A stretch of 64,000 bases of DNA from Pseudothermotoga sp. (lineage in GTDB: Bacteria > Thermotogota > Thermotogae > Thermotogales > DSM-5069): positions 1 to 64,000 of the forward strand of contig JANXCS010000006.1 of assembly GCA_025060105.1 (NCBI GenBank), in the 5' to 3' direction. The notes beneath the pieces are model-generated. The model saw only the letters and a program-made list of their open reading frames with translations, did not search any database and was not told the origin of the DNA. Below, in pieces: positions 6-14,177 of the stretch (within the stretch, counting starts at the first letter, position 1; every line of letters begins with the position of its first letter). The translations under genes and the position numbers were made by a program.

Positions 6-344
6 ATTGCCATCTCTTTCAGAGAGTATCTCTTTTCGGACAGCAGATTTATAAGTTTGGAGCCTGGGGGGTTTGTTATTATTGCCATCTCTTTCAGAGA
101 GTATCTCTTTTCGGACCATAGAAAGAAACGGGGTCCGTGGACTCCGAACGCTCGCTATTGCCATCTCTTTCAGAGAGTATCTCTTTTCGGACTGTTAAAG
201 CAGGTATATGAAGCAGGCGTCTGGGGGGTCTGATTGCCATCTCTTTCAGAGAGTATCTCTTTTCGGACTAGCGAATACATCGAAAGATATGGTTTAAAGG
301 GACTCCGTATTGCCATCTCTTTCAGAGAGTATCTCTTTTCGGAC
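6..344 (-). CRISPR. CRISPR array, 5 identical 36-bp repeats, open at left edge
   Basis: Five identical 36-bp repeats lie at 6-41, 81-116, 157-192, 233-268 and 309-344, with four unrelated spacers of 39, 40, 40 and 40 bp. On the plus strand the repeat begins ATTGCC and ends TCGGAC. Only five bases precede the first copy, so the array probably continues beyond the window. The right-hand copy is not degenerate, which suggests the right end (facing the cas operon) is leader-proximal and that transcription runs leftward, the same way as the cas genes; the strand given is inferred from this. The repeat contains TCTCT-AGAGA-TCTCT arms that can form two alternative hairpins. Confidence 0.97.
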
Positions 345-645: not shown

Positions 646-2553
646 CTAGGGATTTTGATGTTGGAAATAGGGTATGTAGAGTTTCCATTCATCTTTCAAG
701 AGTGACACCTTATCGACAATGTAGATGGGATAAGGTAGCTTCAAATTCACGTATGGTGTCGGATGGAACAATCTGGTCGTGAGATAGATTTCGTATGCTA
801 TTTGCTCTTCAGAAAGGTTTGATCTGTTAGTATGGATATTTATCTCAACCCCTTTTTGCAAGTTGTACGTATCAGCAAAATAGATGTACTTGTTTTTCTG
901 GAGTTCTATTAGCTTTCCTTTCAAGTTCATGGATGAGTTTATGTTCGAGTTTTTGTTGATCTCAACTATCACATAATCCACTTTTAAGATATCTAGATGA
1001 TTTTTCAATTCTGTTGTGTCTTCTATGAACAATCCGTCGCGAATCAAAAAGAGTATTCTTGGTGGAACGCCATTTGAGAGTGTGTAAAGATCAATAGATC
1101 TAGCGATATTTTTCAACAGTAGGTTCATGTCTAGCCTTTCATCCAACTTTAGATTCAGTTCTTGATCAATGTACAGTATTTTTCCTTTAGAATCAACAGC
1201 CGCAAAGGCATAGTCGGATCGTCTTTTGTGATGATCATGACTCAGATCGAATCCAGTGTACAGCGCACCGTTTGAAAGACCAGACAAATAATACGGTTGA
1301 GATCCTGGAACAAAATTGATCGTTTTGTAAGCAAAACTCTTCAGAACGTAGACTTGATTTTCAACGATTTTCGAAACTAGAATGGGTAGAACTATAAGGT
1401 TCTTTGGGAATTTTTTCAAAAATTTTCCAAGGCCATTGTAAGTTTTCGAAAGAAGGACGATCACGACTGTTCCATTCGGTAGAGCTCCAAGTTTTTCAGA
1501 GTCTAAAAGCTCGAGGTCCTCTTCTCGATATAAAAATTCGACTGTTTCAAAACTCTGTACGTTGGGTACGATTGATCTTAAGGTCTTCATATAAATGGAA
1601 TTGTCTGAGATTAATTTGTCTATAAGTTGTTGCCTTTGCTCTTTTGAAAGCTTATCAGGAAGCAGGAGCACTATTCTCAATCGGCTGGGTTTGACTCTCC
1701 AGCCAAACTGAAAGACGTCTCTAACCTGGTTCGATTTACCTTTGGCAAATTGGTAGACAATACCAAAGTTCTTTATACTACCTTGTTTCAAAGAATAAGG
1801 TTTCTTTACATCGATCAGTTCTTCCAAAAACTTCAACTCAGTCGGTAACTTTTTGAACAGTGAGGGAATTTTATTCGTATAAAGTTCGTAAATTTCCTTT
1901 GAGATTTTCAATTTTTCCATTTCTTTAGGGGAGAAGTTGAAGAAATAGTTCTCAGGTTGAGAAACTTCTTTCTGGAAATGTTCGTTTATTTGTATGACGA
2001 GCTTTCCGTTTTCAATACAAACGAAGGGGAAAGATCTACCTGAAATAATGTTGAGCAGGAATGCAGACCTCACTGTTGAATGGAGTGCCGATTTGGTAGA
2101 TAGAAACACTAGACGGGGATTGATCGATAGATAAAATTTTTCGTCAATTTGATGGATTCCAATTCGATAAGCTTCGAAATAGGAGACTTCTGGATGGGTT
2201 CGTAACGGTGTTTTCGTTGCCAAGGAAATGTACAAATGTTGTGCTGCTTTGGCAAATTTATTGTCTTTGAAGAGTTTTTCGATATAGCTGTAAAGAGTTT
2301 TAACAAAGAGTGTCACGTCGTTTTCAACTATTTGCTCTTTCTTTTTGTACATGCTTGAACGCTCTGGTAATATCTTCACATTCCTGTTTGTAAGAGGCAG
2401 TTCAACCCAGACGAGATCTGAAGAGTGGACGAATCTTATGTTGTTCATCCGTGACATATTTCGAGCGAACTGTTCTGGAGAGCTTTCAGGGTTGTAATAG
2501 AAAATCCTTTTTACCTTGTCAGGGATGACGATTCTGTACAGATTCAGTTCCAT
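646..2553 (-). CDS. ago: CRISPR-associated prokaryotic Argonaute, Marinitoga (MpAgo) type
   Basis: Probable guide-directed nuclease of 635 residues, close to the 639 of MpAgo, which uses 5'-OH RNA guides to cut single-stranded DNA and RNA. The C-terminal PIWI domain shows GFDLSHD (D436), LDERL (E472) and IRDG (D506). The spacing D-36-E-34-D is the same as in MpAgo (D446, E482, D516), and the position matching its fourth residue N624 is D614 (YIVDK). The catalytic tetrad therefore looks intact, possibly as DEDD. The start is preceded by GAGGAGG eight bases upstream. The gene lies 13 bp after cas2 with its ribosome binding site inside that gap, so it is the last gene of the cas operon. The function in vivo, whether adaptation or interference, is not known from sequence. 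N, PAZ and MID regions are assumed from length. Confidence 0.92.
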   Translation of the reverse strand: MELNLYRIVIPDKVKRIFYYNPESSPEQFARNMSRMNNIRFVHSSDLVWVELPLTNRNVKILPERSSMYKKKEQIVENDVTLFVKTLYSYIEKLFKDNKFAKAAQHLYISLATKTPLRTHPEVSYFEAYRIGIHQIDEKFYLSINPRLVFLSTKSALHSTVRSAFLLNIISGRSFPFVCIENGKLVIQINEHFQKEVSQPENYFFNFSPKEMEKLKISKEIYELYTNKIPSLFKKLPTELKFLEELIDVKKPYSLKQGSIKNFGIVYQFAKGKSNQVRDVFQFGWRVKPSRLRIVLLLPDKLSKEQRQQLIDKLISDNSIYMKTLRSIVPNVQSFETVEFLYREEDLELLDSEKLGALPNGTVVIVLLSKTYNGLGKFLKKFPKNLIVLPILVSKIVENQVYVLKSFAYKTINFVPGSQPYYLSGLSNGALYTGFDLSHDHHKRRSDYAFAAVDSKGKILYIDQELNLKLDERLDMNLLLKNIARSIDLYTLSNGVPPRILFLIRDGLFIEDTTELKNHLDILKVDYVIVEINKNSNINSSMNLKGKLIELQKNKYIYFADTYNLQKGVEINIHTNRSNLSEEQIAYEIYLTTRLFHPTPYVNLKLPYPIYIVDKVSLLKDEWKLYIPYFQHQNP

Positions 2554-2566
2554 CGGTGAATCCTCC

Positions 2567-2854
2567 TCATATAACGATCACATCTTGGTCGAAGAAGCGC
2601 CCTTTATCCTTACCAATCGTAACTATTTTGTCTCTCACGCCTTTAGTTATTGGGTATATCCTCACCGTATCTTCTTCAGGTTTAATGCGTTTTTTAATAC
2701 CACGTACGAGTTGGTCAAGCTGTGATTCAGCGAGTTCTGTTTCGAAAACGCTGTATTGAACCCTCACACCGTAGCTTTCCAGGTAATCAGACAATTCTTT
2801 CCGTCTTTTATCGTCAGTCACATCGTAACTCACAACGAAAAGCACGTTTATCAC
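2567..2854 (-). CDS. cas2: CRISPR adaptation protein Cas2
   Basis: Small ferredoxin-fold protein of 95 residues that forms the Cas1-Cas2 spacer integrase with the upstream gene. It opens with a hydrophobic strand and the conserved SYDV motif containing the usual aspartate, followed by DDKRRKELSDYLESYG and VQYSVFE, both characteristic of Cas2. The start is GTG, and its GTGA overlaps the cas1 stop, so translation is coupled. The gene is followed after 13 bp by the Argonaute gene. Assignment is firm; whether it keeps any nuclease activity of its own cannot be told. Confidence 0.95.
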   Translation of the reverse strand: MINVLFVVSYDVTDDKRRKELSDYLESYGVRVQYSVFETELAESQLDQLVRGIKKRIKPEEDTVRIYPITKGVRDKIVTIGKDKGRFFDQDVIVI

Positions 2855-3849
2855 TTCCTGAAGTAGGGTATATAGTGTTCGTCTTCACCTAGTACTACGC
2901 GAGCGTAGTGCCTAGCTTGCTTTTCGAAAATCGTTCTCACATAATTCTCCTCGTCGTCCAGGTGGTATTTCATCTTGCTGTTCAAACGTTCCTCGAATTT
3001 GCTTATGAACCTTTTCAAAGCGTCTTTTGTGAAGTGAATTATTCCTCCTTCGATCTCTTCGAAATCCTGAATCGTGAACTCGTTTCTGTTGATCGCGTTC
3101 ACCACGAAACTGTCCACAAGTATGCATCTGTACTCCTCCGTGAGATCAAACAACAATGATTTCTTCGAAACGTCAACGGTATGCAAGTTCCCGAGGTATG
3201 GATCGAGCCCCACAGCGTTCAAAGCTGCTTCAATCTCGTTGTAAAGTAAGCTGTAACCAAGAGAAAGCATTGCGTTTATCGGATCTTTTGGAGGATGTGC
3301 GACCCGCTTTTCAAATTTGAACTGTTCACTCTTGAACAATTTTCCAAAGCCTTGGAAATAGTACCTTGATCCGATCCCTTCCAGTCCGATTATTTGTTCG
3401 ATGGTATCAGCCAAGGAGACTTTCTCGATGATTTTTCTCAAAGCTGCCATTTCCTCACCGAGGAAGCCTCGGGGTAGATTTTTACTCCTGTTGCTCAGAA
3501 AATCATAGTAGTTTTTTAATTTTCCAGTGACTATGGCTCGCGCCATTTTCAACTTGAAAGCAGCGTCGTTGTATCTTTCGTATTGTTTGAGTCTAAGCAG
3601 AACATTCCTATATTCATTTGTACAGAGTTTTCCTCTGTATTTGCCGTACTGGGTCATGAACACGACCTCGATCCCATTTTCCAAGAAGTAGTTGATCAAC
3701 TGGGTGGTCATCGATATCATGCCCATGAGATTGATCTTCTCGATTTTTTTGAGCGGTATCTCGGCTAAAATTTCACCTTGTTTTGAAACGATAAGCTTTC
3801 CGGATTCTTTGGAAAGTAAAGCACCTTGTTCGGTCACGTACAGTACCAT
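2851..3849 (-). CDS. cas1: CRISPR integrase Cas1
   Basis: Spacer-integrating endonuclease, 332 residues from the ATG at 3849, which has GAGGG about seven bases upstream. A GTG at 3861 that overlaps the previous stop is a less likely start. The N-terminus (LYVTEQGALLSK) is typical of Cas1. The metal-binding residues are visible: Glu in GLEGIGSRYYF, His in LGNLHTVD and Glu in LFDLTEEYR. It is a plain Cas1 with no fused reverse transcriptase or Cas6 domain. It sits between the primase-polymerase and cas2, an order reported for CRISPR-associated primase-polymerases in Marinitoga. Confidence 0.95.
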   Translation of the reverse strand: MVLYVTEQGALLSKESGKLIVSKQGEILAEIPLKKIEKINLMGMISMTTQLINYFLENGIEVVFMTQYGKYRGKLCTNEYRNVLLRLKQYERYNDAAFKLKMARAIVTGKLKNYYDFLSNRSKNLPRGFLGEEMAALRKIIEKVSLADTIEQIIGLEGIGSRYYFQGFGKLFKSEQFKFEKRVAHPPKDPINAMLSLGYSLLYNEIEAALNAVGLDPYLGNLHTVDVSKKSLLFDLTEEYRCILVDSFVVNAINRNEFTIQDFEEIEGGIIHFTKDALKRFISKFEERLNSKMKYHLDDEENYVRTIFEKQARHYARVVLGEDEHYIPYFRK

Positions 3850-3857
3850 ACTTTCCC

Positions 3858-5477
3858 TCACAAGATGATTTGTATCTCTCCGTTGTTTTTTCTGACGACC
3901 ATATTTTCCACGTGTATCTCATCATTTGTCATCTTTAAGGCTAAAATCGTTTTCAGCGTTTTTATTTGAACTTCAATTTCTGTTTTTTTCCTCGTTTTGT
4001 CCAAGATCTTTCTAACCAGATCTCTCACATCGACCTTTTGAAGTACGAATGAAAGACAGTCTACAGCAAAACAAATGGGACTGTTGAAGACCGTTTTGAA
4101 TTTACAGTTACAACGTTCCAAGCTCAAAGCGATGGATTTGTTCACGATTTGTTCTCTTATTTCTTCACAGCTTATGGGAATAGAATCCAAGCTGTTCAGA
4201 ATCGCTTCCAGTCTGTGTTGGGAATAGTTTATAGTGTTTTCAAGCAAACTAGTGAGGAATCTTTTCGATTCCTCGAGAAATCCACAAGCTGCGATCAGGA
4301 TGTATTCTTCATCGGTCGTTATGTAAGCGGATTTTTGAATCTTTTCAGCGATTTGGTTGAGGACATGACACGATTGGATCACGTGATTGATCGTGTCCGA
4401 AGTTTTTGCATGATCGATCTCACTTCTGATGATCTTCTTTATGTTCTTTTGAGTATTTTTTGGCTCATCAATGCGTGGAAGTTCATGCGAGTTTTGTTGC
4501 AACAAATCATTGTAGAGCCGTTCAAGGATCTTGACATCGTTTTGTTCCATTTTCATGAGGTACTCAAGTTGGTTGGAAACTGGTTCGAGATTTTTGTCCA
4601 CAAAAACACACCTGTTAGCCGTTTTTCTGTGAACACCGAGAGGTAACTTGATGAGATTACCAAGACCTCCAGCTGTGTCAGACTGCTTAGGAAAGATTTC
4701 TACGCTGATGTGTTCTGGTATGGAAATTTCAGAAACTATTCTTTTCAAAACTAGCCTTACTTTGTAAGCTTGAACCCACGTGTTGAAGAAGATCCACACG
4801 TGATAACCTTTGTTTCCGCTGAACTCGAGGTAGTGTTTGATGCCCTCGATTTCCAATTCTTTGCAGATTTGTTTAACCACCTCTTGACAGTTCAAAAGTG
4901 CCTTTTCTCGATCTTTCAAGACTGTGTCTTTGAGATCTACATCGAAGGCGGCGAATTTTATACAGTTGTCAGACCTCAACGGATACACTCCAATAGTTTT
5001 GGATCCTTCTAAATGATCAATGATGTCTCTTTCTTTCATCGGAGACCTCACTGGGTAGTATCCAGTACTCGTTTGAACGGCGAACACGTCTTCTCTACCG
5101 GAGAACAGTTCAAGAAATTTCTTGATGACACGTTGGTCTATTTGGTTCACTTTTAAATCGTTTTTGACAGGGTTCACCGTACCTAGTTTTTCGTAAATCA
5201 ATGCGGCTAGATCGGTCATTCCAAGTTCTTCGTAAACTTGTGCAAGTTTTTCCATGTACTGTTTTTCGGCTGTTTTTTGAACCAAGATTTCGAGAACTTC
5301 CCTCGCTTTCTCATAACGTTGAAACTCCAACAGTAAGTTGGCGTATTTTTGGAGTGAACCGTCCTCCACGCATAATTCGTTGAAGGCTTTTTCGTAGTAT
5401 TCAAGAGCTTTCACGAAGTCAAATTCTTCCTCTGCTTTCAAAGCCAACTCTTTGAAGTTCAAGGAATCACTCCTCAT
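3858..5477 (-). CDS. CRISPR-associated primase-polymerase (TPR + AEP + Cys-rich C-terminus), CAPP-like
   Basis: Protein of 539 residues. Residues about 10-100 are TPR-like helical repeats (EFDFVKALEYYEKA, YEKAREVLEIL). Residues about 110-310 are an archaeo-eukaryotic primase domain with the catalytic FDVD pair (D179, D181), SGNKGYHVWIF with H226, and KLPLGVHRKT at 277-286. The C-terminal part carries cysteines at about 370, 398, 437, 456, 458, 469 and 474 that could hold an iron-sulfur cluster or zinc. The family is known from Marinitoga, where such CAPP enzymes prime and extend DNA and bind Cas1-Cas2, implying a role in making or repairing spacers. The ATG overlaps the cas6 stop (ATGA); an in-frame TTG at 5462 has a better Shine-Dalgarno sequence (AGGAG) and could be the real start. 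Function is inferred from family and position. Confidence 0.88.
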   Translation of the reverse strand: MRSDSLNFKELALKAEEEFDFVKALEYYEKAFNELCVEDGSLQKYANLLLEFQRYEKAREVLEILVQKTAEKQYMEKLAQVYEELGMTDLAALIYEKLGTVNPVKNDLKVNQIDQRVIKKFLELFSGREDVFAVQTSTGYYPVRSPMKERDIIDHLEGSKTIGVYPLRSDNCIKFAAFDVDLKDTVLKDREKALLNCQEVVKQICKELEIEGIKHYLEFSGNKGYHVWIFFNTWVQAYKVRLVLKRIVSEISIPEHISVEIFPKQSDTAGGLGNLIKLPLGVHRKTANRCVFVDKNLEPVSNQLEYLMKMEQNDVKILERLYNDLLQQNSHELPRIDEPKNTQKNIKKIIRSEIDHAKTSDTINHVIQSCHVLNQIAEKIQKSAYITTDEEYILIAACGFLEESKRFLTSLLENTINYSQHRLEAILNSLDSIPISCEEIREQIVNKSIALSLERCNCKFKTVFNSPICFAVDCLSFVLQKVDVRDLVRKILDKTRKKTEIEVQIKTLKTILALKMTNDEIHVENMVVRKNNGEIQIIL

Positions 5478-6280
5478 TCGATGGGCAATCTCTCGATCTG
5501 ACCGAGTCCCATCGTCGTTTTGTACCCAACACCCGCAAAGAAGGCAAAATCGGCGAGCACGTTCGTGATTTTCAGTAGTTCTTGGTTGTTCTCTGGAACT
5601 TTGAAGATGACATCTCCGACGAATCCTTCGAGATAGAAATCTCTAAAAATCACCCGTTTGGATATGGTTTTCCTCTCGAGTATCGAAATCTCCTTGAATT
5701 GTTTTTCAATCTGCTGCTCTATCTTAAATTCGGAAAATTTGTTGAATTTTCTCAAAAGACTGAAAAAGACTTTCTCCGGCACAGGATATCTGTTATGTTC
5801 ATCTCCCGATCTGAAGAGCGTTGGTGTGTGGAACCTAAGTTTTATAAGGTTCGATTCTAATGGGCTGAGGAAGAGTTCTTGGGCAGATGCGTGTGCTGCC
5901 CATTTACTGTGCTCTTTGTCGAAGAATATCTCGACTATTCTGTAGGGTATGTTGCCTATTTTCATTTCCTGTCTCAGTGCATTTTTTTCTAGTAAACTCG
6001 CAATCATGGAATCGAAGATCTCATCGTTCAGCATTGTGATTCTTATGAAATAAAAGGAGTGTTTGTTGATGTGTATAGGCTCATCAACGTTAAGGCCTAA
6101 AAAGGATGAAACTGTGAACGGCTTTTCTTTTTTCTCATCGTGAAGTAACTTCGCCATTTTTGGATCGGACTTACTGATAAGGTCAAGAAAAAAACTGTGT
6201 ACTTTCTGACCGGGGTAAAAATCGTATACACCTTCATCTAAAGCTTGTAGTTTGATGACCACACTGTGAAAGATACGCAT
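5474..6280 (-). CDS. cas6: Cas6 CRISPR RNA endoribonuclease
   Basis: RAMP-fold ribonuclease that cuts CRISPR transcripts within the repeat, 268 residues from the ATG at 6280. The middle part has the Cas6 signature IKLRFHTPTLF followed by a helical stretch (PVPEKVFFSLLRKF), and the end carries the glycine-rich loop AGVGYKTTMGLGQ just before the C-terminus. Its stop overlaps the start of the primase-polymerase gene by four bases and it begins six bases after the DUF457-like gene. A catalytic histidine is expected near the N-terminus; H6 and H29 are candidates but cannot be decided by eye. Confidence 0.92.
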   Translation of the reverse strand: MRIFHSVVIKLQALDEGVYDFYPGQKVHSFFLDLISKSDPKMAKLLHDEKKEKPFTVSSFLGLNVDEPIHINKHSFYFIRITMLNDEIFDSMIASLLEKNALRQEMKIGNIPYRIVEIFFDKEHSKWAAHASAQELFLSPLESNLIKLRFHTPTLFRSGDEHNRYPVPEKVFFSLLRKFNKFSEFKIEQQIEKQFKEISILERKTISKRVIFRDFYLEGFVGDVIFKVPENNQELLKITNVLADFAFFAGVGYKTTMGLGQIERLPIE

Positions 6281-6286
6281 CACCCC

Positions 6287-7099: not shown

Positions 7100-7678
7100 T
7101 CACTCTTCACCAACTTCGAAAACCTCTACGTCTCCAAAACCATACTTTCTGTTTTCTCCAAAACCCGCGTATCGAGAAAATTTCATCAGGGCGGAGGCAT
7201 CTTCGTTCAACGTTCTGATAGTGATATAGGTGTTCGTCCTATCAACTTTCATTGAGGCAAAGAGATATTTTGGTTTGATATTTATACCGAGGAACATCGA
7301 AAAATCGCTGATGAGTTGTTTGAAACTTATGACGTCGGCGTCGTAAATCTTCAGAATGTACGTGCTCGGAGGTGTGAAGAGTTCCTTGGTGAGGGTCCAT
7401 TCAAAAAATGGGTTGTCTGATCTGAACGAGCTCTTCAATTCGTTCGGCAGGTTCAGTATGAAAAATCGAAAGAGAGCGGGTAATGGGCTAGATAGCACCA
7501 AGCAGTTACCGTGTTTAGTCCGAACCGGTCCCATTACCCGTAAAGTACCATCCGGCGCATTCAGAACGAACTCATAAATGGCTTCATTTATATCCTTGAT
7601 AAGTTTTAGGACATACTGCCATTTTTCTTCATGATCATTGAAGATTTCACTGGTGTAAATGGGAAATCTACCAATCAT
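7100..7678 (-). CDS. Additional RAMP-superfamily protein, Cas6-like C-terminus
   Basis: Protein of 192 residues from the ATG at 7678, whose ATGA overlaps the csm5 stop and which is preceded by AGGTGG; a start 24 bases further upstream is possible but less likely. The end of the protein shows SRYAGFGENRKYGFGDVEVF, a glycine-rich loop like that closing Cas6 and other RAMP proteins. It is too short for a normal Csm4 or Csm5, and all five Csm subunits plus a separate Cas6 are already present. It may be a second Cas6-like processing enzyme or an extra complex subunit. The general fold is fairly clear, the precise role is not. Confidence 0.65.
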   Translation of the reverse strand: MIGRFPIYTSEIFNDHEEKWQYVLKLIKDINEAIYEFVLNAPDGTLRVMGPVRTKHGNCLVLSSPLPALFRFFILNLPNELKSSFRSDNPFFEWTLTKELFTPPSTYILKIYDADVISFKQLISDFSMFLGINIKPKYLFASMKVDRTNTYITIRTLNEDASALMKFSRYAGFGENRKYGFGDVEVFEVGEE

Positions 7679-8745
7679 CGTACCACCTGGAACGCGAACC
7701 AACCGATCGGTGATATGATTTGACCGTTACTCAAAACAACCCTTCTGGAGAGAGGAGCCACATCATTTCCGTGGGGCTTTATCAAGTTTCTCACATTTTT
7801 TCTGAGTTGATCATCGAGCAGGATGAATAAACTGCAAGCTTTCAGTCCTCCGCCGTAACCTATGTGAATCTTGTTCGGTTGCTTTTTTAGTTCTTCAAGA
7901 ATTTGACGATATTTGGAATTTTCGTTCTTTAAATCTCTCAATTCGTCTTCTACAACGTCTGTGTACATTTCTCGGACGCAATCTAAAACCTGTTCGATCG
8001 ATCTTGGCACGTTTGAAAAATTTTTTGACAACTCCTTCTGAATCGCTTCTAAGCCGTTCATATCGAAAATAATCTCAACTTCCAGTTCAATAGATGGAGC
8101 GGCAGCTTCTATGAGGAAGGTGCGTTTTATAGAACCAGGATCGAGTCTCTGTGACTGAACCTTGACGATACCGATTCTCAATAGGCAGAAAGGTGTGTTG
8201 ATCAAGTTTGAATCTCTCACGATCAGAAACCTCGCGAAGTCAGAGCGAAGGTCGTTCTTGATCAATCTCAAGTGGTTGTTGATTTCTTTGGTGATGTGTT
8301 GCAATTCTTGTTTTCTTCTAGCCGTTCTCAAAGCGTTTGCAACCAAGTTTCTAAAGTAACCAACGTTCCTTTTCATCAAACAATACTCTATGGCAGTTCT
8401 TATGGCGCCTTTTATGGAACTACCGGGTATGTACATGGCACCTGAAGGGTGTTTTATCATCTGGAGGATCTCACCATCGATTGTCCCTACGTAGTTTTTT
8501 AACTGATAGAAAATGTCATTATCATGGTTTATTTCCTTATCCACCCTTTGAACAGTCTCGTTCACAATCTTTTTGAATTCTTTTCTGATGTTTGGATATT
8601 TGTGAAGAAGCCTGAAAAAAGACATGTCTCGAAGTCTGTAATATGTATCACCAATCTTCACGATTTGACAGGGAACGTATTTTTCACCAGAGCCTATGAA
8701 GAATGGGGTTAGCGATTTGAGTTTTAATACCACACTTTGTTTCAT
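7675..8745 (-). CDS. csm5: Csm5, type III-A effector subunit
   Basis: RAMP protein of 356 residues, the head subunit that binds the 3' end of crRNA in the Csm complex. The N-terminus LKSLTPFFIGSGEKY is the usual Csm5 opening, followed by the YIPGSSIKGAIRTAIEYC motif in which PGSSxKG is the RAMP signature, and later a glycine-rich stretch IGYGGGLKAC. It overlaps csm4 by ATGA at its start and the extra RAMP gene at its end, so translation is coupled through the csm block. Confidence 0.92.
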   Translation of the reverse strand: MKQSVVLKLKSLTPFFIGSGEKYVPCQIVKIGDTYYRLRDMSFFRLLHKYPNIRKEFKKIVNETVQRVDKEINHDNDIFYQLKNYVGTIDGEILQMIKHPSGAMYIPGSSIKGAIRTAIEYCLMKRNVGYFRNLVANALRTARRKQELQHITKEINNHLRLIKNDLRSDFARFLIVRDSNLINTPFCLLRIGIVKVQSQRLDPGSIKRTFLIEAAAPSIELEVEIIFDMNGLEAIQKELSKNFSNVPRSIEQVLDCVREMYTDVVEDELRDLKNENSKYRQILEELKKQPNKIHIGYGGGLKACSLFILLDDQLRKNVRNLIKPHGNDVAPLSRRVVLSNGQIISPIGWFAFQVVR

Positions 8746-9599
8746 ACTCCATCACCACCGAAGGCTACAGTGATCGGTGAGGTTTGAATGAAATAGTCTT
8801 CTATTTTGGCAAGGCCACGTCCTTTTATTGGAAATGGAAATGTGCTACCTTCCATAAGATAATTTAGATCTGCCTTGACTTGAACTGAATCTTTTTTGAA
8901 ACCTCGCTTCCTCACAACTTTATAGTAACCTTCGTTCAACCTCTCAATTTCATCTACGTTCGGTACAGATAAAGACAACGTGCAGTGATATTTCCCACCT
9001 TGCTCAAACAACTTGGGCAAATCGACCACTTTAAAGTTGAACAAGCCAAAACCATACGTTGAATCCCCACCGATACCACTGTCTGCCAAGATTCTCAGAC
9101 ACTCCATCAATAAGCGTTCATAGGTATCTGCAAATTCTAAAATTACGCACGGAACATAGTCTGGTTTGACATGAGCAACCTCTACGAAGTAGAGCATCGA
9201 TTTGTTGGTGTTCCTGTCTAGAGCATTTCTAGGGATATTCGTGACGATCACGGGTTGATCCATTAATGCAGATTCTTCAGGATTCTTCAAAGATAGCTTT
9301 GATAGATACACGTAGTTTGCATTTTTCAATCTTTTTGGATTCTCTAAGGAAAGAGAATCAAGGATCAAAGGCTTTGGAATGAGAAAATCGTTCGCGTGTT
9401 GGAAGATCAAAGAGGAACATTTCAAGCTTTTCGCAAAATTCTCAGCTTCCTCAGGATTGAGTTTGAATGCCCAGTAAACGAGAGCACCATGGATCGTGTC
9501 CGAATGAATCGTTGGGAGGGTAGAGTCAGATTCATCTCCCCTTCCTATCCTGAAACCACCCTCAAATTCGATGAGGATGAGTTTTTTCATTTCGATCAT
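8742..9599 (-). CDS. csm4: Csm4 (Cas5 group), type III-A effector subunit
   Basis: RAMP protein of 285 residues that caps the 5' tag end of the crRNA and contacts Cas10. The N-terminus carries IEFEGGFRIGRGDES and IHSDTIHGALVYW, typical of Csm4, and the glycine-rich STYGFGLFNF lies around residue 180. The ATG at 9599 overlaps the csm3 stop (ATGA); a second in-frame ATG nine bases on (9590) is better spaced from AAGGGA and may be the start used. It is followed by csm5 with a four-base overlap. Confidence 0.9.
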   Translation of the reverse strand: MIEMKKLILIEFEGGFRIGRGDESDSTLPTIHSDTIHGALVYWAFKLNPEEAENFAKSLKCSSLIFQHANDFLIPKPLILDSLSLENPKRLKNANYVYLSKLSLKNPEESALMDQPVIVTNIPRNALDRNTNKSMLYFVEVAHVKPDYVPCVILEFADTYERLLMECLRILADSGIGGDSTYGFGLFNFKVVDLPKLFEQGGKYHCTLSLSVPNVDEIERLNEGYYKVVRKRGFKKDSVQVKADLNYLMEGSTFPFPIKGRGLAKIEDYFIQTSPITVAFGGDGV

Positions 9600-10393
9600 C
9601 CCTTCAAAAGTTTTTGCTTCAGCTCTGAAACTCTTTCTTTCAAGCGTGAAACACTTTTATCCTTCAAATCAAAGGAAATCACATTTTGTTGTTCCCCTTT
9701 GTAATAACTTTCAGGTTTGACGATCAGCCTGTCTACTTCGAATCTAACTTTTCCGTATCCTCTAGATCCACTAGAACCGATGTAATCATCCTCGATCAGT
9801 TCAAGGGCAGTGAAGATGTTCCTGAGGTCTTCTTCGATCTCATCAGCTTTTTCAGCTGTGTAGATTATTTCAAATGAGAATTCAGCATTTGCTGGGACTC
9901 TTTCAAAGCTTCTTGGGCTTGCATGACAAGTTACTCTATCGAGAGCGTTTTCCATCTTCCATTCCGTGTACGGAGCATCTGTTTCCATTCTTTCCAAAGA
10001 TTCTCTCGATTCTTCTGTCAGATGAGCGTCTCTAACGATTATCCTGGAAGGTATGTTGGTCTTTTCATCATTGAACTTCGGTGAGGAGCCGAAGAGTCTG
10101 CAGATTTCACATTTAGTATCAGCACACTCATGCCTTCTGATAGCATTCTTACCAGAACCATGGAGTTTGAGTTCCTTTTTCTTCAACCTTTCCAGCAACG
10201 CTCTCATTTTTCCTTTCAGTGAACTTCCAGGCAAGTAAGGTTGACCAGTGAGTGGGTTTCTGATCACTGGGTTGTCAAGTCCCCCTATGGAGATACCTAT
10301 GTCCGATCCACCGACTCTTGTTCCACTTAAAAGGACGATCCGTCCAGAGATGATGTACTTGCCGAGTATGGGTTTGATGGATGTTTCGTTCAT
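9596..10393 (-). CDS. csm3: Csm3 (Cas7 group), target-RNA-cleaving backbone subunit
   Basis: Backbone RAMP subunit of 265 residues. The opening VGGSDIGISIGGLDNPVIR contains D40, which lines up with the aspartate that cleaves target RNA at 6-nt intervals in known Csm3 proteins (D33 in S. thermophilus). PYLPGSSLKGKMRALLE is the RAMP signature and GSSGSRGYGKV the glycine-rich loop. A C-x5-C-x2-C segment with an adjacent His (RHECADTKCEIC) may bind zinc. The catalytic aspartate is intact, so RNA cleavage is expected. The start overlaps the csm2 stop and has a GAGGAGG-rich upstream region. Confidence 0.95.
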   Translation of the reverse strand: MNETSIKPILGKYIISGRIVLLSGTRVGGSDIGISIGGLDNPVIRNPLTGQPYLPGSSLKGKMRALLERLKKKELKLHGSGKNAIRRHECADTKCEICRLFGSSPKFNDEKTNIPSRIIVRDAHLTEESRESLERMETDAPYTEWKMENALDRVTCHASPRSFERVPANAEFSFEIIYTAEKADEIEEDLRNIFTALELIEDDYIGSSGSRGYGKVRFEVDRLIVKPESYYKGEQQNVISFDLKDKSVSRLKERVSELKQKLLKG

Positions 10394-10842
10394 CTTCCTC
10401 TACCTCCTCTCTGAAGATTTTCATAATGTTCACTCTTCATTTGTTCGTAATATTTGACATAAGCAATTATAGAATCATAGAATTTTTTGAAAAATTCAAA
10501 ATCTTGGTGATCCTGGATTTTGTCTATAGCTCCACTCAACACATCCTGTAAATCTTTCAGCTCTTCTTGGCGCCCTGTTTGGTAAGCGAGAAAAGCTTTA
10601 ACAAAGATTATCTCATCGAGTATTTCTCTTTTGAATTTTTCTGAATCTTTTAAATATAAAGATCTGTTCATCGAATATCTGCTCCAGATCTTGGTTATAT
10701 GGCTGTGAAATCTTCTGATTTGTGTGATGGTTATTTTTTTATCAATGATGCCTTTGGCGACATTTTCTGAGAAACCGATCATTTTAGAGACATCCCAATT
10801 GGAAAGCTTTTGTAGACACTTAATTTCCTGTAAGTTAATCAT
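10390..10842 (-). CDS. csm2: Csm2 small subunit of type III-A complex
   Basis: Helical small subunit, 150 residues from the ATG at 10842; this start is six bases from AGGAGGG, whereas the ATG at 10848 abuts it. The sequence is lysine rich and helical, with the typical pattern KITITQIRRFHSHI then a long helix containing FVKAFLAYQTGR and a C-terminal FEFFKKFYDSIIAYVKYY. These features and the place between cas10 and csm3 identify Csm2. Its start lies inside the last codons of cas10. Confidence 0.88.
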   Translation of the reverse strand: MINLQEIKCLQKLSNWDVSKMIGFSENVAKGIIDKKITITQIRRFHSHITKIWSRYSMNRSLYLKDSEKFKREILDEIIFVKAFLAYQTGRQEELKDLQDVLSGAIDKIQDHQDFEFFKKFYDSIIAYVKYYEQMKSEHYENLQRGGRGR

Positions 10843-13012
10843 TTTCATCCCTCCTTGCCTTGAGATCCATCAACTGCATGACACTGTTTAATGCTGGAAT
10901 ATCTTTAGTTCTGATGAGCTTGACGAAATCTCTATCATTTTGGTTCTCTCGAGCTTCAATGTAAGCTAAAAAAGCCTTGTTTAAAGGTGATTCTTCCAGC
11001 GAAAGCGTTAGAATTTTTCTCAAAACGCTTCTATCCACAACACCAACTAGGCTCGATAGTTGTTCGTACGCAGGGTATGTCTTTCCAGCGAATTCACTCC
11101 ATTTGATGATTTGGGTCTTCTCTAGCTTCTTTCTTTGAGGATGTTTTTGTATACCGTGAGAAAAGACGAGACAATCTTTTCTGCTTTTTCCAAGTTTTTC
11201 GATGTATTCAGCCGTTTCCTTCACCTGAGAGATACTCTCCCTCTCATCAAACAGAACGAAGCCAGCAGTGTATGTGATCTTTTCGTTGTTTCCAGTGAAT
11301 TTTCGAAATTCGATCTGCATTTCATAAGTAAAACGAAGAACATCTTCCCAACCACCAACAACGAAAAGATCGTCTCCACTCGAGTAAACTATTGCAAGGT
11401 TCTTCTCCTCAGCGATTTTCGTGATTCTGTATTTGAAGAAATATGTGAAGAGTCTTGAAAGTGTACTGATTCTCGACATAGTTTTGATCTCTAAGCCGTT
11501 TTTGAATATGTCACCAAGGCTATCGATGTCAGCTTGGATGCATGCAAGTTTCTTTCCTGCCGATTCTTCAGCCATTTCCTCGAACTCTTCATGTTTGGCG
11601 TATCTCGCTATATCGATGAATACGAGTTTTTCAGAGTTTTCTGGATAATTTTCAGGAAGGGTCAGTACGTAACTGGTTGAATTGGAAGGCTCGTCACTGA
11701 AATCGTATTTTTCATTGAGTATTTCAAATTCTCCCTCTGGATCACGCACAAAGTATTTTGCTTTCACCATTCGTTTACCATATTCGTACATCTGTTTGCA
11801 GAAACCGCACACGATTGGTTCTTCATTTTCCCTTATCGGCTGTAAATCTCTCACCCTTTTTCCGCATACTTTACATGTTTGTAGGTTTTGAACGCTTTTA
11901 ATGTTCACAAGATCGAAGATCTCGTGAAGTTCTTCTTGAGAGTACATTCTGAGCTTTGCTTGACCCAATTTGTTCTTCAACCTTTGAAAAGCGTTGGAAG
12001 GATCCTTGACCTCGCTCAGTTTCATCGGTTCGCATTCTATGACCAGTTTGAGTTCAGGCGCTTTCTCGATGAGCCATCTGTTGATCTCGTTTTTCACTTT
12101 CAAAATTTTTTGAAAGTTTTGATTCGTATTGGACAAAACCAGATAGAAGTGTCCTCCTCCTATGTAGTGAACGTTCGTTCTGAAGAAGTTTGTTTCTTCG
12201 AGTATCTTGTCTACAATTATTTCTTGTAATACGTCTATGAAAAAACTACGACCCCTGAAGGAGCGCAGTGCACCTTTCGAAGAAACCTTCTTGATGAACC
12301 TTTGAATCCCAGAAACATCTCCTCCAACGAGTAGAAGAACTTCTTCTTCCGACAGCTTCTTAAGATCTCCATAATTATCGATTTTGATACCATTCGTCAG
12401 TATGTAGTCATAAAGCGAGAGTGCTATCATAGCGGTGACCTTCATATGGTCGTAGAGTGATATGTCCATAGTTCCAAGCTTTTGAGTTGACTGTGGTACG
12501 AAGGATAAATACCTGTACAGAAGAAATCTCAGATTTTCAATGTTCAATTTCAGTTTTTTTGCATCTTCTACGAGCATTTCGTAGAGTTTTCTGAAATCTT
12601 CTTCTTTCGCTACTTTTTTGTCCGTTGGTTGCTTCAACTCACCAACTGGTAAAGGTTCAAAGAAAGAGAAGCTGGTTGCATCCTTGTCTTTGTATATCCT
12701 TGCAAGAACGTTCTCAAGAGTTCTTAATTCTTCGAAACCTTCATCTTCTCTCGTTTGACGCTCAGAACTAGCCACGTTGTCGGCGTAACACACAAACCAC
12801 GTGAGTTTGTCGTCATCGAGATCGCGTTCATGATGTTTGAAGATGAATTTTTGATAGGGTCCAAAGATGTACTCATCGTTAACCTTGACATCCCTAACGA
12901 ATCGAGCACCCGCGATCGTGTGAGGCTCTTTTTGTAATCCCGCTCTTCTCACGAGTTTGCCTATATCGTGTATCAACGCACCGATGACTAGTTCTTCACG
13001 TTCGTTTTTCAT
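10835..13012 (-). CDS. csm1: Cas10/Csm1, HD nuclease and cyclic oligoadenylate synthase subunit
   Basis: Large type III-A subunit of 725 residues that senses target RNA, cuts single-stranded DNA and makes cyclic oligoadenylates. The N-terminal HD domain is intact (LIHDIGKL with H15-D16, H60/H61, and CYADN with D78). The first Palm domain begins near GGDVSGIQRFI (230-240). A zinc ribbon is formed by C380-x2-C383 and C402-x2-C405. The second Palm domain has ADIDSLGDIF (494-503) and the cyclase motif YSSGDDLF, so GGDD reads SGDD here (S545-D548), with both aspartates kept. The start has GGAGGTGA upstream. The upstream CARF gene would be the receiver of its signal. Confidence 0.95.
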   Translation of the reverse strand: MKNEREELVIGALIHDIGKLVRRAGLQKEPHTIAGARFVRDVKVNDEYIFGPYQKFIFKHHERDLDDDKLTWFVCYADNVASSERQTREDEGFEELRTLENVLARIYKDKDATSFSFFEPLPVGELKQPTDKKVAKEEDFRKLYEMLVEDAKKLKLNIENLRFLLYRYLSFVPQSTQKLGTMDISLYDHMKVTAMIALSLYDYILTNGIKIDNYGDLKKLSEEEVLLLVGGDVSGIQRFIKKVSSKGALRSFRGRSFFIDVLQEIIVDKILEETNFFRTNVHYIGGGHFYLVLSNTNQNFQKILKVKNEINRWLIEKAPELKLVIECEPMKLSEVKDPSNAFQRLKNKLGQAKLRMYSQEELHEIFDLVNIKSVQNLQTCKVCGKRVRDLQPIRENEEPIVCGFCKQMYEYGKRMVKAKYFVRDPEGEFEILNEKYDFSDEPSNSTSYVLTLPENYPENSEKLVFIDIARYAKHEEFEEMAEESAGKKLACIQADIDSLGDIFKNGLEIKTMSRISTLSRLFTYFFKYRITKIAEEKNLAIVYSSGDDLFVVGGWEDVLRFTYEMQIEFRKFTGNNEKITYTAGFVLFDERESISQVKETAEYIEKLGKSRKDCLVFSHGIQKHPQRKKLEKTQIIKWSEFAGKTYPAYEQLSSLVGVVDRSVLRKILTLSLEESPLNKAFLAYIEARENQNDRDFVKLIRTKDIPALNSVMQLMDLKARRDEND

Positions 13013-13016
13013 ATGT

Positions 13017-14177
13017 TCACCTCCTTTCTTTCAAAATTTTTTCGATCTTTTCTTTGACACACTCTAAAAATCTGTTTCTTCCAATCACCGTATGAACGGT
13101 GAGGAATCCCATCCCCTTTTTGCTTTTGAGTATGATTTTCAAATGGTCTGCTTCTATCCAGATGTCGTAACTATCTCCACTTTCCTTTTCAGAGGTTCCA
13201 GTTATTCTCACGGTTTTTACCCAAGGGAGCTTCGCTATTTCCTCGATGATGTTTTTGTTGTGCTCTTTGAATTTGGTTCCGTGCCTGATATCCGTAATGA
13301 TCTTATTGGAAAAGTCTTCTTCGCACATGTAATCTTTATCTTCAATGGTTGAGCAGTCCCACTCGATGGTTTGAAGGTATATTTCACCGAGGGGGTTCAA
13401 AGACAAGCAGTTTTTGTTGTCCAAGTTTACTCTCTCTATGAATATCTTCAATTCGTTCGGCACGGCACCCCAATTTCGGAAACCAAACTTTTTGAGAAAG
13501 CTTTCTTCGTCTGTCGTATTTATGTATTCAAGGTATGCGAAGATGCTTGAATAATTTTTGTACACGTTCGGATCGAACTTCACAGGTATTGGAAGCAGTT
13601 CTATTATTTCATCGAAGGTTTCGAAGAGATAATAAACAGGTACGTTCAAAGCTTGTCCGAGAAGAGTAGCGTAGGCAATGGTTGCTTTGTAACCACCGGT
13701 GGCATTGATGATACTGTATTCCAAATGATTTTTGACGCATCTGGCCATCTCCCTGACCAGATTCCTGAGGCCTTGGAATTTGAATTCCAAACGATTTCTG
13801 TTGTCTAGTTTATCGATTTTCACGATCTCTACGCTGTTGAAGTCTAAACCGTTTGTGTTGTTTTCAAAATATATTTTGAGGATGTTTCCCACAAGGCTCC
13901 CCTCGGGTGTGTCAGAAACCAACAAATACATTTTCTGACGAGCAGATAGGAATCCTTTTTCAACCAGGCTAGCGACTGAATTGATCTCAGCACCCCAGAT
14001 GTAGTTTCTTGGATCTTCAATTTTCCTCACAATTCGAGCAACTTCGTCAAATTTCCCCAATTTTGCAAATTCGAGTATTTTTTTCGGTTCTTCTGGAGCA
14101 TTGAGTTTGCTAGCGTTACTGAGAAAGCTTGCACCAACTGTGCACACTAAAGTGTTTCTATACTTTCCAAGGTCCAT
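13017..14177 (-). CDS. CARF-domain cyclic-oligoadenylate effector, APE2256 family, RelE-like C-terminus suspected
   Basis: Protein of 386 residues and first gene of the cas operon. Residues 1 to about 195 are a CARF domain of the Cas_APE2256 type: VCTVGASFLSNA at the start and INATGGYKATIAYA at 157-170, the loop that grips the cyclic oligoadenylate. Residues about 235-270 resemble a small winged helix (LSLNPLGEIYL). The last ~95 residues (HGTKFKEHNKNIIEEI, then GDSYDIWIEADHLKIILKSK and TVHTVIGRNRF) could be a RelE-type mRNA interferase, as in CARF-RelE proteins such as Cami1. No HEPN R-x4-6-H motif was found, so it is not a standard Csm6. The C-terminal call is tentative. The start has GAGGTGA upstream. 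Confidence 0.82.
   Translation of the reverse strand: MDLGKYRNTLVCTVGASFLSNASKLNAPEEPKKILEFAKLGKFDEVARIVRKIEDPRNYIWGAEINSVASLVEKGFLSARQKMYLLVSDTPEGSLVGNILKIYFENNTNGLDFNSVEIVKIDKLDNRNRLEFKFQGLRNLVREMARCVKNHLEYSIINATGGYKATIAYATLLGQALNVPVYYLFETFDEIIELLPIPVKFDPNVYKNYSSIFAYLEYINTTDEESFLKKFGFRNWGAVPNELKIFIERVNLDNKNCLSLNPLGEIYLQTIEWDCSTIEDKDYMCEEDFSNKIITDIRHGTKFKEHNKNIIEEIAKLPWVKTVRITGTSEKESGDSYDIWIEADHLKIILKSKKGMGFLTVHTVIGRNRFLECVKEKIEKILKERR

Follow-up and report, generated by a model that had tools for sequence, protein, structure and literature searches.

Here we describe a CRISPR locus within a window of 64,000 nucleotides (the whole stretch of DNA analysed) from Pseudothermotoga sp., which carries a gene for a CRISPR-associated primase-polymerase (CAPP) of type A1. 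Read from right to left, the cluster comprises a CARF gene, cas10, csm2, csm3, csm4, csm5, a Csx22-like gene, a membrane-type gene, cas6, the CAPP gene, cas1, cas2 and an Argonaute gene, and it ends in a CRISPR array (Table 1). The CAPP frame is read from the minus strand, with its ATG at position 5477 and its stop codon at 3858–3860; the plus strand of the same interval (3858–5477) is rich in stop codons and not open. Four nucleotides are shared on either side: the cas6 stop codon overlaps the CAPP ATG (ATGA), and the CAPP stop codon overlaps the GTG start of cas1 (GTGA). Translational coupling of CAPP to cas6 upstream and cas1 downstream is therefore likely. A first-pass annotation made from the sequence alone, which named no strand, had placed the gene directly before cas1, as the overlap confirms.

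Table 1 Features of the CAPP gene and its neighbours in the window
Feature	Coordinates	Strand	Basis
CRISPR array end, five exact 36-nt repeats, period 75–76	6..344		0 expected by chance
MpAgo-type Argonaute	646..2553	-	NF048006, 705.6 bits; PDB 5i4a, E 9.2e-134
Cas2	2567..2854	-	CRISPR_Cas2, 1.9e-23
Cas1	2851..3861	-	Cas_Cas1, 1.5e-91
CAPP gene (CRISPR-associated primase-polymerase type A1), 539 aa	3858..5477	-	NF040561; PDB 7nqd/7nqf
C-terminal domain, residues 343–539, helical with short beta tail	3861..4451	-	AlphaFold2 model
Conserved C456-x-C458	4104..4112	-	Invariant in 10 orthologues and 8 diverse C-terminal domains
Conserved cysteine C437	4167..4169	-	Invariant in 10 orthologues and 8 diverse C-terminal domains
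Conserved cysteine C370	4368..4370	-	Invariant in 10 orthologues and 8 diverse C-terminal domains
AEP/Prim-Pol catalytic domain, residues 113–330	4488..5141	-	AEP-TOTE, 4.8e-45; VIA Z 35.0 to 7nqf_B
KLPLGVHRKT motif, residues 277–286	4620..4649	-	ORF translation and orthologue alignment
Motif III glutamate E260	4698..4700	-	Invariant in 10 orthologues
Motif II, SGNKGYHVW at 220 (H226)	4794..4820	-	H226 invariant in 20 sequences
Motif I, D179-V-D181	4935..4943	-	D179 and D181 invariant across 10 Thermotogota orthologues and 20 diverse AEPs
TPR-like helical N-terminal part, residues 1–112	5142..5477	-	Weak TPR_19/TPR_14 matches; model helices
Cas6	5474..6283	-	TIGR01877, 8.7e-25
Membrane-type gene, 261 aa	6287..7072	-	Weak YdjM-like match, E 0.0038, under cut-off
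Csx22-like gene	7100..7702	-	PADLOC Csx22, 7.4e-51
Type III-A effector genes csm5, csm4, csm3, csm2, cas10/csm1	7675..13012	-	Domain and profile searches including PADLOC
CARF protein (CARF7, CARF_DUF2103 type)	13017..14177	-	PADLOC, 1.4e-101

Several neighbours call for brief comment. The 261-residue membrane-type gene separates cas6 from the Csx22-like gene, two genes that abut in a close relative (L018), and its homologues occur in seven other Thermotogota genomes, six of which have no CAPP; it therefore looks like an inserted gene. The C-terminal end of the Csx22-like protein weakly resembles Cas6, and the protein is 66% identical in L018. The CARF7 protein, with a C-terminal part of DUF2103 type, is a candidate cyclic-oligoadenylate-responsive protein of the type III-A system. 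The array is interrupted by the contig end, and another contig of this genome (C9) ends in the same repeat, with a few variants; given the repeat shared by both ends, this array may be where the contigs connect.

The CAPP frame matches the NCBI equivalog model NF040561 (‘CRISPR-associated primase-polymerase type A1’) over residues 16–512 with 495.6 bits (curated cut-off, 200 bits). The sole match in a phmmer search of the PDB was the Prim-Pol domain of Marinitoga CAPP (7nqd, E = 3.5e-67; 7nqf, E = 1.6e-66), and AEP-TOTE was the best Pfam domain (E = 4.8e-45); all of these scores lie well outside what chance would give. A full-length AlphaFold2 model (mean pLDDT 86.0) was aligned by VIA to 7nqf_B with a Z score of 35.0 and an r.m.s.d. 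of 1.2 over 217 residues (model residues 112–328); the next fold matches were LigD polymerases, Prim-PolC and human Pri1 (Z 11.5–13.5). Structure prediction had been proposed as a check, with a model lacking the AEP fold taken to refute the assignment; it returned that fold. The earlier reading of a CRISPR-associated primase-polymerase of the AEP family is borne out by family model, PDB match and fold alike. The TPR part placed in front of it gives only faint sequence matches (TPR_19, E = 0.0015, under the Pfam cut-off; TPR_14 also weak). The model, however, has helices from residue 8 to 98, and a TPR-like region spanning residues 5–101 could be superposed on designed TPR proteins (Z about 11.9); the orthologue, as published, is laid out likewise. 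All three AEP motifs, I (DxD), II (sxH) and III (hD/E), are present, with D179, D181, H226 and E260 conserved; D179/D181, SGNKGYHVW (220) and KLPLGVHRKT (277) had been located exactly in the first-pass annotation.

The gene is a CAPP orthologue, of a kind whose architecture, operon and activity have been published. Zabrady et al. named the CAPPs in 2021, defined their layout (TPR, Prim-Pol and a C-terminal domain (CTD) with conserved cysteines) and described their operon with Cas1, Cas2 and Argonaute (PMC8211822). The Marinitoga orthologue was shown to polymerize DNA, to make primers that begin with a ribonucleotide and to displace strands; Cas1 binds its fragment 1–360, which covers TPR and AEP, there is no direct contact with Cas2, the TPR can associate with itself and Argonaute binds the CTD (PMC8211822). 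Prespacer synthesis and the completion of integration were the roles proposed (PMC8211822). The idea that the TPR part could dock Cas1–Cas2 thus stands in part: the orthologue does contact Cas1, but the contact maps to residues 1–360 rather than to the TPR alone, and that with Cas2 is not direct. A 2023 review, which sets out the primer initiation complex, suggests that the CTD acts like Pri2/PriX and counts E260 of MsCAPP among the residues that coordinate the initiating nucleotide (PMC10345425).

MpCAPP and MsCAPP of Marinitoga (PMC8211822; PDB 7NQD, 7NQE, 7NQF, 7P9J and 7QAZ) have the same TPR, Prim-Pol and cysteine-bearing CTD as the window’s protein, are about 45% identical to it in the solved domain, likewise adjoin Cas1, Cas2 and MpAgo, and conserve the catalytic residues, E260 even under the same number. 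The window’s gene differs in that it comes from another genus of Thermotogota and belongs to a type III-A locus, together with Csx22 and a CARF protein. As layout, operon and activity are already in the literature, its identification is a rediscovery.

Full-length CAPP type A1 (E below 1e-90) is present in 10 of 103 Thermotogota genomes, and an MpAgo-type Argonaute in exactly the same ten, which span three families; six further genomes have a distant AEP match only. CAPP, cas1, cas2 and Argonaute occur together in all nine other Thermotogota loci, in two gene orders, and csm genes are found on the stretch read at some of these loci and not at others. The variant order, CAPP–cas2–Ago–cas1, is seen in L021, L022 and L026, and about 0.9 kb between cas2 and Argonaute in L021 and L022 is unmatched by any window protein. 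In an alignment to MpAgo, the window’s Argonaute keeps the PIWI residues D446, E482 and D516 of that protein and has an aspartate in place of its N624. It scores above the curated cut-off of NF048006 (705.6 versus 700 bits) and sits in a Cas1–Cas2 locus, as is typical of its kind (PMC6299218): in a 2018 survey, each of the nine MID-OH Argonautes then known belonged to a CRISPR locus that also holds Cas1 and Cas2, and Cas6 and a primase were reported with such Argonautes (PMC6299218). The co-occurrence in Thermotogota takes this association further and is what a joint function would lead one to expect; the strictness of the pairing suggests that CAPP type A1 and MpAgo-type Argonaute act together.

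Four of the seven cysteines that the first-pass annotation had counted in residues 370–539 (370, 398, 437, 456, 458, 469 and 474, all present) are invariant, namely C370, C437, C456 and C458, in 10/10 Thermotogota orthologues and in 8/8 diverse CTDs, whereas C398, C469 and C474 are not conserved. Members of the eight-CTD set are 21–40% identical to the window’s CTD, and apart from the four cysteines only Y418, F460 and P467 are invariant among them. In the full-length AlphaFold2 model, helices begin at C370 and at C437, whereas C456 and C458 are part of a loop; a separate model of residues 340–539 alone has a mean pLDDT of 84.1.

Relatives found with an alignment query were fetched from public genomes and viral contigs; a contig search with the CAPP protein as single query found no relatives. 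Among those fetched, only L027–L034 have cas1 and cas2 alongside, and all eight carry the full four-cysteine pattern, seven in an intact frame and one (L033) despite a stop codon that interrupts its frame. The pattern was found in none of the 43 other relatives screened, several of which are partial ORFs and some of which lie in short loci. The naive exact probability of this association, 1e-8, overstates the case because of those partial ORFs and short loci and because the sequences are mutually related. As judged from sequence, the tracking of cas1/cas2 linkage by the pattern points to a putative metal site tied to the CRISPR role.

Five distant cas1-linked proteins were scanned, and an N-terminal reverse transcriptase was present in four (L030, L031, L032 and L034) and absent from L029. 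The four resemble RT-CAPP proteins such as Caloramator australicus CART-CAPP (PMC10415136), which have the same Prim-Pol domain and CTD beside Cas1 and Cas2, and they have all four cysteines, as does the window’s CAPP; they differ from it in that the reverse transcriptase replaces the TPR and that the stretches fetched hold no MpAgo-type gene. L033 (positions 2500–3600), an Armatimonadetes relative beside cas1/cas2, may be a pseudogene or reflect a sequence error. A link to DRT UG10, hinted at by PADLOC, was discarded: the RT–AEP protein in question (L045) matches the CTD profile only weakly, and the link does not carry over to the cysteines.

These comparisons bear on whether the gene could be a generic mobile-element or TOTE-type primase that landed next to cas1 by accident. 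AEP-TOTE is its best Pfam domain, relatives without CRISPR genes alongside are common, and its domain family also includes helicase-fused Prim-Pols and the AEPs found in TOTE conflict systems (PF22548). However, the fetched loci of both these groups lack an adjoining cas1/cas2, none of the 43 proteins screened shows the four-cysteine pattern, and the window’s gene overlaps both neighbours by four nucleotides, keeps its linkage in 10 genomes of three families, matches the CAPP-specific NF040561 and has a CTD common only to cas1-linked relatives. We regard an accidental neighbour as exceedingly improbable.

The first-pass annotation had proposed a metal cluster like that of PriL. A metal site is likely, with four conserved cysteines rather than seven. 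The CAPP cysteines are spaced C-x66-C-x18-C-x1-C, and those of yeast PriL (336, 417, 434 and 474; PMC2852410) x80, x16 and x39; order and the first two gaps are alike, but the last differs (x1 versus x39). The CTD profile gave only weak, coiled-coil-like matches among PDB sequences and no PriL, and a Pfam search with the window’s CTD returned nothing over the cut-off. No convincing fold emerged when the CTD model was run through Foldseek (best E 1.8) and VIA-align (best Z 3.8, 47 residues aligned), and PriL was not among the matches listed, although it may still be related. PF04104 (PriL) is also absent from the whole Pseudothermotoga sp. assembly. Like CAPP, the PriS–PriL primase of archaea and eukaryotes has the AEP fold (Z to Pri1 about 12) and four cysteines in a helical regulatory part, but it differs in cysteine spacing, in the lack of detectable C-terminal similarity and in that PriL is a separate subunit. 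Homology of the CTD to the large primase subunit, with a genuine [4Fe-4S] domain of PriL type, would agree with four ordered invariant cysteines that are, with Y418, F460 and P467, the sole invariant residues of so divergent a domain, and with the Pri2/PriX-like role given to the CTD in the full-length CAPP model (PMC10345425). Such homology is nonetheless distinctly unlikely, given the differing last gap and the lack of a PriL match from either the profile searches or Foldseek, for which the query model had a mean pLDDT of 84; as these searches gave no sequence or fold match to PriL, ‘like PriL’ stays an analogy.

Motifs of the CxC kind are common in zinc sites. The four cysteines may thus form a structural zinc site that merely stabilizes a partner-binding domain, a reading for which we see about an even chance. 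It is consistent with the binding of Argonaute to the CTD of MpCAPP and the self-association of CTDs (PMC8211822), and with the efficient priming in vitro by the Prim-Pol domain without the CTD (PMC10345425), by which the cysteine domain may be dispensable for catalysis. Against it, the CTD also occurs where the fetched stretch holds no MpAgo-type gene (L029–L034); Argonaute binding is therefore unlikely to be its sole purpose and is alone insufficient as an explanation. Whichever the metal, the site formed by C370, C437, C456 and C458 probably binds one.

We are highly confident in the overall reading of the gene as a type A1, TPR-class orthologue of Marinitoga CAPP, in a type III-A locus with MpAgo-type Argonaute, that would serve prespacer synthesis or fill-in for Cas1–Cas2 and has a metal site in its CTD. 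The role in adaptation is carried over from published in vitro and two-hybrid work on the orthologue. By that analogy, CAPP in this organism would be bound to Cas1–Cas2, where it would prime and copy single-stranded or nicked DNA into double-stranded prespacers, fill in the integration intermediate, or both, and Argonaute may supply cleaved DNA to this step. The four-cysteine site would most likely hold the CTD together around Zn or an Fe–S cluster, and the CTD may help to place the initiating nucleotide, bind partners, or both. Were CAPP instead mainly to repair or fill in the CRISPR array after integration, making no prespacers, its strand displacement and Cas1 binding would suit gap filling, one of the roles proposed (PMC8211822); yet gap filling needs no de novo priming, at which orthologues are proficient (PMC8211822), and motifs I–III are strictly conserved, so we hold this restricted role to be possible but the less probable one.

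Returning to CAPP as a partner of Cas1–Cas2, the window adds one orthologue of a characterized family, this time from a further genus of Thermotogota and a type III-A locus. Beyond the literature, it contributes the pairing of CAPP and Argonaute in the same ten genomes and the relation of the four-cysteine pattern to cas1/cas2 linkage. Tentatively, and with doubt outweighing belief, the CTD could be a metal-binding, possibly Fe–S, module confined to Cas1–Cas2-linked Prim-Pols of the TPR and RT branches, which would couple primer initiation to the spacer-acquisition machinery, possibly through a redox-sensitive or PriL-like step. The four invariant cysteines, whose full pattern tracks cas1/cas2 linkage, provide a precise testable target.
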